A DNA stretch of 64,000 nucleotides from Arthrobacter sp. TMP15 (lineage in GTDB: Bacteria; Actinomycetota; Actinomycetes; Actinomycetales; Micrococcaceae), in NCBI RefSeq assembly GCF_039529835.1, contig NZ_CP154262.1, positions 248,001 through 312,000 of the forward strand, written 5' to 3'. The notes beneath the pieces were generated by a model. That model was not told where the DNA came from, made no database searches, and worked only from the letters and a program-made list of their open reading frames with translations. A program made the translations under genes and the position numbers. This document shows, piece by piece, positions 15,671 through 22,078 of this stretch (position 1 is its first letter; the number at the start of each line of letters is the position of its first letter).

Positions 15671-16027
15671 ATGACCACCAACGAAGCCGCCAGAGGACAC
15701 CTCCCAGGCAAAGAGGGAGTTTTTGCGGCAGAGAACGTCCGCGAAATTTTTGTGGGGGCCTGCAGCAGCCCGCCTGTGGTGAACTATTTAGTGCCACCAG
15801 GCCACGCGAGGAAGCATGAGCATTCAAGCCGTTGGACAAGCCGTTGGACAAGCCGTTGGGCAAGCCGTTGGGCAAAGTCAGGCAGGGAAGCGGGCATGGC
15901 GACAGCTGAATATGCCATCGCAACGTTGGCGGCTGTGGGGTTTGCCGGGCTCCTTGTTGTAATTCTCAAAAGTGACGAGGTACGGGGATTCTTGCTGAAC
16001 ATTATCCGAACAGCCCTGAGCTTCTAG
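15671..16027 (+). CDS. DUF4244-family Flp-type prepilin with long repeat-bearing leader
   Basis: 118 residues from ATG 15671, with AGGAG 5 bases upstream. A class IV prepilin cleavage site is visible at Gly75-Met76, followed by ATAEYAIATL. Glu80 is at the +5 position expected for pilins, and Tyr81 follows it. Cleavage would leave a 43-residue mature pilin that is mostly one hydrophobic helix. The 75-residue leader is unusually long and contains four SRW[T/A] tetrapeptides (residues 53-68). The protein corresponds to the Flp-like Rv3656c position of the mycobacterial locus. No prepilin peptidase gene is in the window. Confidence 0.8.
   Translation: MTTNEAARGHLPGKEGVFAAENVREIFVGACSSPPVVNYLVPPGHARKHEHSSRWTSRWTSRWASRWAKSGREAGMATAEYAIATLAAVGFAGLLVVILKSDEVRGFLLNIIRTALSF
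15826..15873 (+). repeat. four 12-bp tandem repeats inside the prepilin leader
   Basis: Four units of AAGCCGTTGGRC, differing only at the penultimate base (A in units 1-2, G in 3-4). They encode SRWT, SRWT, SRWA, SRWA. The 12-bp length keeps the frame, so copy number could vary without breaking the gene. Confidence 0.9.
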
Positions 16028-20347: not shown

Positions 20348-21241
20348 GTGTCGATGAACAAAATTGTGCTTTTTTATGGTTTTACCCCGCTCAGTGATCC
20401 GACGGCGATCAGACTGTGGCAGCGCGCGTTGGGTGAGAAGCTGCACCTCAAGGGTCGCATCATCATCTCCAAGGATGGCATCAACGCCACTGTGGGTGGT
20501 GACATCAGAGACCTGAAACAATACCTAAAAGCCACGCGTGAGTATCCCGGTTTTAAGGACATGGACATCAAATGGTCCGATGGCATGGGGGATGATTTTC
20601 CTCGTCTGAGTGTGAAAGTCCGTGAGGAAATTGTCAGCTTCGGCGCGCCCGGTGAGCTCAAAGTAGATCAAAACGGCGTCGTGGGAGGGGGCACTCACCT
20701 GCAACCCGAAGAACTCCACGAGCTCGTTGCCGCCAAGGAAGCCAACGGCGATGAAGTTGTGTTCTTCGACGGCCGCAACGCTTTCGAAGCCCAAATCGGT
20801 AAGTTTAAAGATGCCATAGTCCCGGACGTCGCCACCACAGCAGACTTCATCAAGGAACTGGACTCCGGTAAATACGACGGGCTCAAAGACAAACCGGTTG
20901 TCACGTACTGCACGGGTGGGATCCGCTGTGAAGTCCTCAGCTCGCTTATGATCAACCGTGGTTTTAAAGAGGTCTACCAAATGGACGGCGGCATAGTCCG
21001 CTACGGAGAAACGTTCAAGGACAAAGGCCTGTGGGAAGGCTCGCTCTATGTGTTTGACAAGCGCATGCACCTTGAATTCAGTGACGAAGCTCTAGAAATC
21101 GGCCATTGCATCCGATGCAATAAACCCAGCAATAAGTTTGAGAACTGCTCCAACCCGAGCTGTCGAAATCTCAATCTTTACTGTGCTGACTGCGCCAGCA
21201 CACCCGAAACGTTGCTCTGCCCCCAAGGCTGCACCGACTAG
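20348..21241 (+). CDS. trhO: tRNA uridine(34) hydroxylase, rhodanese-domain protein TrhO (YceA)
   Basis: 297 residues. The N-terminal domain starts [14 protein letters not shown] rhodanese domain follows with the active loop [10 protein letters not shown] (Cys188). A cysteine-rich C-terminus (CIRCNKP, CSNPSC, CADC, CPQGC) is typical of the family. TrhO uses oxygen to hydroxylate U34 of certain tRNAs, the first step towards 5-methoxy- or carboxymethoxyuridine. GTG at 20348 or ATG at 20354 could be the start; neither has a strong ribosome binding site. The stop codon lies directly against a 57-bp tandem array. Confidence 0.92.
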
Positions 21242-21243
21242 TC

Positions 21244-21483
21244 CCCACGCCCTCCCAACACTCGCAAGCTCGTGCCGGGTCCCCCGGGCGCGTGGGCCCA
21301 CCCACGCCCTCCCAACACTCGCAAGCTCGTGCCGGGTCCCCCGGGCGCGTGGGCCCACCCACGCCCTCCCAACACTCGCAAGCTCGTGCCGGGTCCCCCG
21401 GGCGCGTGGGCCCACCCACGCCCTCCCAACACTCGCAAGCTCGTGCCGGGTCCCCCGGGCGCGTGGGCCCACCCACGCCCTCC
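21244..21483. repeat. tandem array of four identical 57-bp units
   Basis: Units start at 21247, 21304, 21361 and 21418, identical by eye over all 57 bases, with a 9-base partial fifth copy (21475-21483). Each unit contains the palindrome GTGGGCCCAC. Unit junctions can form a 7-bp GCGTGGG/CCCACGC hairpin with a CCCA loop. The array fills the space between the trhO stop and the leader of the TPR gene. Because 57 is divisible by three and the DNA is GC-rich, it leaves long spurious open frames on both strands. Confidence 0.97.
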
Positions 21484-21562: not shown

Positions 21563-22078
21563 ATGACCTTGAATGACGAGCTTGACCATCTTTTAGCCAC
21601 CCGGGACCGCAACAACATGGCGCCAACGATCAAGGCTGTGGTGTGCCTCCATGCAGCTCATCCCGAGAACGCTCGCGTGCTTTATGAGGTTGCGGGCGCT
21701 TATGACACGGCAGGTCAAGAACAAGTAGCGCAGGGGTTTTACGAGCGAGCTCTTGAGGCCGGTCTGGAAGGTGATCTTCTTCGCCGATGCTATGTTCAAT
21801 ATGGTTCCACCCTCCGGAACGTGGGTGAGTTCGGGAAGTCCCGTGATGTTTTTGCAGCAGCCCGCAAAGAGTTCCCCGATTCCCCTGCGTTGGCTGTATT
21901 TGAAGCAATCACGTTCCATGCAGAGGGACGAGCAAATGAAGCTTTTGCTTCGCTACTCGAGCTGACGGTGGACTACGTAGAAAGTTCCGATATAGATCGT
22001 TACAAGAGCGCTATTAGCGGAAACGCAGCTTACATCCGGTCTCTGGACAGAAACGAAGCACCTGCCTCAGGCACGTAA
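21563..22078 (+). CDS. tetratricopeptide-repeat protein
   Basis: 171 residues from ATG 21563, which has GGGAG 10 bases upstream; an ATG at 21554 is too close to it. The sequence is nearly all helical, with TPR-like pairs such as NARVLYEVAGAYDTAGQEQVAQGFYERAL and the LRRCYVQYGSTLRNVGEFGKSRDVF segment. Proteins like this are usually protein-binding scaffolds; no partner is evident. The promoter would have to lie in or just after the 57-bp array. Confidence 0.75.
   Translation: MTLNDELDHLLATRDRNNMAPTIKAVVCLHAAHPENARVLYEVAGAYDTAGQEQVAQGFYERALEAGLEGDLLRRCYVQYGSTLRNVGEFGKSRDVFAAARKEFPDSPALAVFEAITFHAEGRANEAFASLLELTVDYVESSDIDRYKSAISGNAAYIRSLDRNEAPASGT

Follow-up and report, generated by a model that had tools for sequence, protein, structure and literature searches.

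The window analysed here, a stretch of 64,000 nucleotides of the genome of Arthrobacter sp. TMP15 (contig NZ_CP154262.1, positions 248,001 to 312,000, from an assembly of 2 contigs), carries a tandem repeat array directly behind trhO and upstream of a codirectional gene for a TPR protein (Table 1). An earlier note on this DNA had described four identical 57-bp tandem units behind trhO, which TRF confirmed (window positions 21244–21483, period 57, 4.2 copies, 100% matches, 0 indels). The same note placed the start of the array two bases after the stop codon, and this stands for the repeat as called by TRF; the element proper, however, starts at 0 nt, because the bases TC that follow the trhO stop TAG (21239–21241) are included in single copies elsewhere and thus belong to the element, and the first unit was redefined to begin at the base directly 3' of the stop. 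The palindrome GTGGGCCCAC described for each unit is indeed found once per unit, at 21292, 21349, 21406 and 21463. The reading frames through the array are open, and a coding repeat was rejected on the grounds that unit lengths vary (56–58, with a 48-base period in locus L010), the stems covary and three such frames, when searched, had no Pfam family; the earlier view that the coding content does not explain the array is supported. A separate 12-bp tandem repeat lies in the window at 15825–15875 (4.2 copies, 97% match).

Table 1. Coordinates of the repeat array and of the neighbouring genes in the window
Feature	Position	Strand	Evidence
trhO (tRNA uridine(34) hydroxylase), ORF of 297 aa	20348..21241	+	NCBIfam NF001133, 240 bits (cut-off 170); Pfam UPF0176_N, Rhodanese, Rhodanese_C
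Element copy 1, ends TCCCC...GTGGGCC, adjoins the stop	21242..21298	+	Boundaries from single and nested copies
Copy 1, arms of stem P1	21248-21252 / 21286-21290	+	Covariation
Copy 1, arms of stem P2; loop TCGCAAGCTC	21254-21261 / 21272-21279; loop 21262-21271	+	Covariation
Element copy 2, first bases CACCCA in place of TCCCCA	21299..21355	+	Sequence, TRF
Element copy 3	21356..21412	+	Sequence, TRF
Element copy 4	21413..21469	+	Sequence, TRF
Partial fifth copy, CACCCACGCCCTCC	21470..21483	+	Sequence, TRF
Next gene, TPR protein, codirectional (context, outside the element)	21566..22078	+	Pfam TPR_5, E=7e-17

Copy number at trhO and at other loci

In a second strain of the same species, the trhO site holds 2 copies with a different tail, a count taken from a 20-contig draft genome and possibly too low. 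More than one copy at this site in the second strain makes a plain assembly artefact, in which TMP15 would have a single copy, unlikely, and the difference of 4 vs. 2 copies between conspecific strains bears out the suggestion of a strain-variable minisatellite; together with the concerted changes seen in other arrays, it also agrees with the recent expansion or homogenisation that had been proposed. Counted as the number of right-end motifs per locus, TMP15 and the second strain also differ at L023 (1 vs. at least 6, with an assembly gap) and L046 (3 vs. 5 right ends), and they are equal at several loci, e.g., L018, L019, L021, L024, and L025. At L037 a unit has been lost and the scar TCCCCACCC left behind the stop. 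Of the 19 loci compared between the two strains, 17 were filled in both, the others being L037, with its loss, and L040, where the downstream sequence is unrelated, and no fresh insertion was found among them. Base changes in both repeat copies at once, observed at L018 and L023, indicate that the copies homogenise.

The gene trhO is present in all 23 genus genomes searched, and 22 of the orthologues were read (L098 was left out). TCCCC directly follows the stop in six of these 22 (G000, G038, G013, G001, G006, and G004), as a truncated remnant in G001 and G006, and other remnants lie behind trhO in G021, G019, and G016. The element is thus not a conserved part of trhO, and the site appears to have been used more than once or to have decayed repeatedly. 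A trhO-specific role, one of those that the earlier note had in mind, is disfavoured by the occurrence of the element behind many unrelated genes and by the fact that most trhO orthologues read have no intact copy. The array would most likely be near-neutral for trhO, or at most a modifier of its 3' end, and a strong regulatory role for this gene seems unlikely.

A dispersed family of hairpin elements

A private minisatellite was refuted by the dispersed family to which the unit belongs, a family that the earlier note had not recognised, as it had neither its placement at 0 nt from stops nor its nesting in itself. A blastn search of the unit against the TMP15 genome gave 20 matches at E≤0.001, and a covariance model (R1) gave 34 at E≤1, with no match in the window outside the trhO array among the candidates scored (about 137–150 per genome); this model was built from 8 units and includes TAGTC columns, so that its counts lean to TAG. 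The comparison of the unit with other Arthrobacter genomes, which had been proposed as a check, found it dispersed in all 22 same-genus genomes (9–87 matches each at E≤0.001 with the covariance model, again among about 137–150 candidates scored per genome) and in none of 16 genomes outside the genus. A pattern blind to the stop codon had matches in 22 of the 23 genus genomes, its reversed-pattern control giving 0, and a stricter pattern was found in 6 of 24 genomes of the family and in 0 of 273 from other families of the order. A second stop-blind scan, which is informative about presence only and not about absence, yielded at least 113 stretches (116 copies), and the 80 loci listed by name come from Arthrobacter, Pseudarthrobacter, Paenarthrobacter, Specibacter, Psychromicrobium, and Sinomonas. 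A plasmid or phage origin was rejected: one plasmid record, from Arthrobacter sp. ERGS1:01, carries the element at 4 places, and phage records contained no match to it. The hosts upstream of copies in TMP15 include groEL, purH, prfA, grpE, and a dapA-like gene, the grpE and dapA assignments being profile matches below their curated cut-offs.

A known RNA family was rejected as an identity, given that nothing over the element exceeded a gathering score: the Rfam covariance models produced no listed match over it (17 loci at E≤1; 9 loci at E≤0.5), with two weak exceptions, and the sub-threshold matches beside or over copies were mir-483 at L024 (31.4 bits vs. 60) and BjrC68 at L047 (20.7 vs. 39). 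Among the open-licence PMC papers listed in literature searches, none was recognised as describing a 57-nt family with the ends TCCCC...GTGGGCC. A ZMP/ZTP riboswitch above its gathering score is located at L021:2489–2576. A second tandem array, of 55 bp and 4.8 copies, was observed at L009:5637–5898 (G000:C1, about 3019136–3019397); it has the loop CTCGCTTCGCTCGG and a similar GGGGCCCCTCGG part, and may represent a sister hairpin family.

Each unit has 57 nt and two covarying stems between the ends TCCCC...GTGGGCC. When 167 distinct copies of 57 nt were compared, the nine column pairs that covary most strongly, out of 1596, all belonged to the two stems (columns 7–10 with 46–49, and 16–20 with 31–35), and most of the covarying pairs are represented by all four Watson–Crick types. 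Hardly any variation occurs at the ends, in the T-CCC or in the loop, a conservation that is partly imposed by the search pattern, in which these motifs are partly set and the stem columns are free. In 8 aligned copies, 97.2% of the cells are paired, vs. 83.3% when shuffled and at most 45.8% when slid. The folding of the transcript, also suggested as a check, gave a divided result, the whole trhO array folding better than shuffled sequences (z −2.69) and a single unit no better (z −0.77).

The stem mismatches of the sense strand are mostly of one kind, A.C/C.A outnumbering G.T/T.G by 91 vs. 8 in all copies (P1, 15 vs. 2; P2, 76 vs. 6) and, with distinct arms counted once, by 12 vs. 2 in P1 and 52 vs. 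6 in P2 (110 P2 arm types); the composition-corrected one-sided p values are 0.023 for P1 and 5e-5 for P2. An A.C on one strand is a G.T on the complementary strand, and since a fold of the sense strand should tolerate G.T, we propose, on moderate evidence, that the folded form is probably the opposite strand, either as DNA or as antisense RNA. This is a statistical argument, with little force in the case of P1; the pair 6–52 has the opposite trend (14 G.T, 0 A.C) and, given its 22 unpaired cases, may not be a true pair. For REPs, G.T pairing has been used as evidence of RNA action (PMC3733652).

Stop codons and hairpin loops at the sites of the element

The left end of the element lies 0 nt from the in-frame stop of a long frame in 21 of the 116 copies listed in the stop-blind scan (TAG 12, TGA 5, TAA 4), with 7 more copies at 1 nt and a mean of 0.39 in each distance bin from 2 to 200 nt. 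The largest other bin, 10 copies at 27 nt, corresponds to the length of the outer left arm and therefore fits nested copies whose outer copy adjoins a stop. Within the subset of 80 listed loci, 17 of 83 copies are at 0 nt, and the background stops are TGA 159, TAG 132, and TAA 67. The first stop-blind pattern placed 17 of 43 copies at 0 nt (TAG 6, TAA 6, TGA 5), in 40 loci hand-picked among the matches listed from six genomes, and a second set of copies from this pattern had 7 of 26 there (TAG 7); the stop-blind patterns demand a T before CCCC, and the first one also a non-A three places before this T, which raises the share of stops. When the stop triplets directly before copies were considered (116 listed), 21 of 26 close a frame of at least 120 codons, compared with 10.9% of the stop triplets at any position in the 80 loci listed by name (p=2e-16), so it is the real stop that is favoured and not the triplet as such, with the proviso that genes in GC-rich DNA may be misjudged by an open-frame test (at least 100 or 120 codons). 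No comparable spike was found at the right end with respect to convergent genes. In TMP15 itself, the element begins immediately behind an in-frame stop at 15 of 19 loci (13 TAG, 2 TAA), the preceding frames being open over 184 to 500 codons or more, and does not at the other four; this set leans to TAG through the model holding TAGTC, and it excludes two weaker matches (E 0.28 and 0.61).

The idea that the stop codon is carried by the element is not supported; an empty relative keeps the same stop in 7 of 11 gene groups, a figure that takes the trhO group from the orthologue reading; the stop differs in the other four filled/empty groups, including L122 (TAA) vs. L335/L339 (TGA), at 91% identity. 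The clearest unchanged stop in empty relatives is TGA, in L297 and L168 and in L234 and L224.

Most sites of the 116 copies listed are not directly behind a stop, and the triplets preceding the element are TAG, TAA, TGA, AAG, CCG, CGC, and others, 26 of the 83 sites in the 80 listed loci falling outside every class named here. The loop of another copy is a frequent site, 25 of the 116 copies listed following TCGCAAG; in a wider collection of loci, 33 such loop junctions were listed. In a pool of 188 elements, which mixes TAG-biased and unbiased copies, 23 are nested in sense and 0 in reverse, the latter searched with one exact pattern. The junctions read by eye are TCGCAAG|TCCCC...GTGGGCC|CTCG, apparently without the target-site duplication that marks a MITE of a DDE transposon. 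In L280, one insertion encloses another and their right arms match; in L307 and L101, inner left arms number three but right arms are fewer, so that part of this structure is the duplication of one arm. Further copies were seen by eye in loops or at the feet of other hairpin families, and in genome G010 none of the 20 copies examined adjoins a stop, most of them lying inside another dispersed repeat.

Several observations were made on these neighbouring repeats. In G010 (L129–L148), 37 of 48 pattern matches listed follow CGC, and the host repeat reads GGTCTCG ... GCTCGACCACCG. A separate palindromic repeat, AAGTACGACGCCGG...CCGGCGTCGTACTT, occupies L047:1768–1825, and elsewhere elements are found at the foot of palindromes resembling that of L047 (CGTCGT|TCCCC). 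In L225, L233, L276, L287, L296, L314, and L322, copies sit on the arm of a larger hairpin with a variable outer stem, GCCCG before the copy and a CGCGG-like stretch after it; Rfam gave no match over this larger hairpin in the five of the seven loci scanned. In addition, both strains carry at L027 (G000:C1:3260190–3260255) an in-frame copy close to the beginning of a coding region, which adds about 18 residues relative to L234, a relative without it.

Origin of the element and comparison with known repeats

We consider it probable that the trhO array represents the tandem expansion of a REP-like element of the Arthrobacter group, a miniature mobile hairpin that is non-coding, and the family of REP-like hairpin repeats as a whole is probably mobile. 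The element would move as, or be recognised as, the folded single strand opposite the mRNA, by an enzyme, and a single insertion behind the trhO stop would have been multiplied by slippage or recombination. Against this reading count the outcome of the search for a mobiliser (Y1 transposase in 2 of 23 genus genomes, integron integrase above its cut-off in none), the lack of a fresh insertion among the loci compared between the two strains, the copies kept behind grpE in several species, which selection for a function would explain as well, the weakness of the strand argument for P1 and the contrary pair 6–52, the single unit that folds no better than shuffled sequence, and the 26 of 83 sites outside every class. 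An alternative that we regard as rather unlikely is that of a functional 3' element of the mRNA, a hairpin kept behind the stop to terminate or protect the transcript or to slow the terminating ribosome, with the exact distance being the product of selection. The preference for real stops over stop-like triplets, the grpE-associated copies kept in several species, the better folding of the array and a TMP15 variant, L017, with a long stem followed by TTCGTTTTT, would all be in keeping with this, as would the REPs near stops in E. coli, those at no more than 15 nt from the stop being reported to slow the terminating ribosome (PMC12306157). However, the stem mismatches of the sense strand have the pattern expected of folding on the other strand, a simple consensus scan for a terminator (GC-rich hairpin then T run) found no site in the trhO array, and one TMP15 copy lies between grpE and dnaJ, the next gene, all of which weaken the stacked terminator or mRNA stabiliser of the earlier note. 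Moreover, the majority of the stop-blind sites listed are not directly behind a stop, intact copies are missing from most trhO orthologues read, and a distance of exactly 0 nt is not obviously demanded by selection.

The mobile element that we favour could also have its landing defined by translation, in sense only, at the base after any in-frame stop or else in hairpin loops, as if it were inserted at the RNA level, on terminating ribosomes or close to them, and a resident reverse transcriptase then copied it back into DNA, which we find improbable. The corresponding route, in which the element joins mRNA or cDNA at the stop in the A site and in exposed hairpin loops and returns by reverse transcription, is quite improbable. 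It would account for nesting in sense only, adjacency to stops at the left end only, the use of in-frame stops of all three kinds over other stop-like triplets and the loops as another target class, and the reverse transcriptase domain RVT_1 is encoded in 21 of the 23 genus genomes, with a retron-like enzyme at least 54% identical (54–99.8%) to that of TMP15 in 17 of 18 fetched loci. Nevertheless, neither an RNA intermediate nor a joined molecule was seen, elements occur also in the two genomes that lack RVT_1, a pattern scan of the 18 reverse transcriptase loci found no clear copy of the element, and the folding of the opposite strand would need cDNA as the folded form. The TMP15 reverse transcriptase is located at L325:2759–4228 (G000:C1, about 2057258–2058727), near nrdF, and has the PADLOC RT_other and the retron outgroup models as best matches. 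Retron DNA was rejected as the source of the element, with no match by eye upstream of the TMP15 gene and none clear in the 18 loci. A true REP mobilised by a RAYT (IS200/IS605 tyrosine transposase) would likewise be a short palindromic repeat with a loop, an internal mismatch and many copies, and GTAG REPs are reported often to supply a TAG stop (PMC3733652), but we hold this to be very improbable: the Y1 transposase (Y1_Tnp, PF01797) was found in 2 of the 23 genus genomes and not in TMP15, there is no fixed GTAG or CGTC foot, and the stop may be TAG, TAA, or TGA. The identity with REP/RAYT was rejected on the missing transposase, and that with integrons on the integron integrase (TIGR02249), above its cut-off in 0 of 23 genus genomes. 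Least credible of all is a plain minisatellite of no wider meaning; repeats do homogenise and copy numbers vary by strain at trhO and other loci, but the solitary copies found at numerous sites, the covariation of the stems and the registration with stops speak against it.

The mobile hairpin element outlined above shares features with several known systems. As integron attC sites, whose structure is conserved over sequence, whose opposite strand is the folded one and which place a hairpin close behind a stop, it has a structure conserved more than its sequence, an opposite strand that seems to be folded and a hairpin close behind the stop; unlike them, it has no integron integrase above the cut-off in 23 genomes and is found nested inside its own loop. 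Tandem arrays whose copy number varies by strain are also typical of the MIRU of Mycobacterium, and are described for Renibacterium VNTR loci (PMC4029610). The element is likened to these minisatellites by description and not by sequence, and differs from them in having as its unit a hairpin with covarying stems, which also occurs singly, in nested form and inside a gene. Rickettsia palindromic elements insert in frame inside genes, as the copy in L027 does, the single in-gene case seen among the loci examined here. With REPs and REPINs and their RAYTs, the likeness lies in repeats that are short, palindromic and without coding content, numerous in each genome, frequently placed behind genes and proposed to be mobile, and some REPs are reported to supply TAG stops (PMC3733652). 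The present element, in contrast, has 57 nt and two stems, adjoins any of the three stops without a GTAG/CGTC foot, forms head-to-tail arrays, nests in itself and is accompanied by no Y1 transposase that could be found in 21 of 23 genomes.

The choice of sites by the common short palindromic repeats of bacteria is poorly understood. The element described here follows a sharp, testable rule, namely 0 bases after a real stop, any stop, in sense only, with its own loop as the second site, and this rule calls either for a mobilising enzyme of a new kind or for selection linked to the termination of translation. The element is, besides, abundant in soil bacteria, and its arrays are usable as strain markers.
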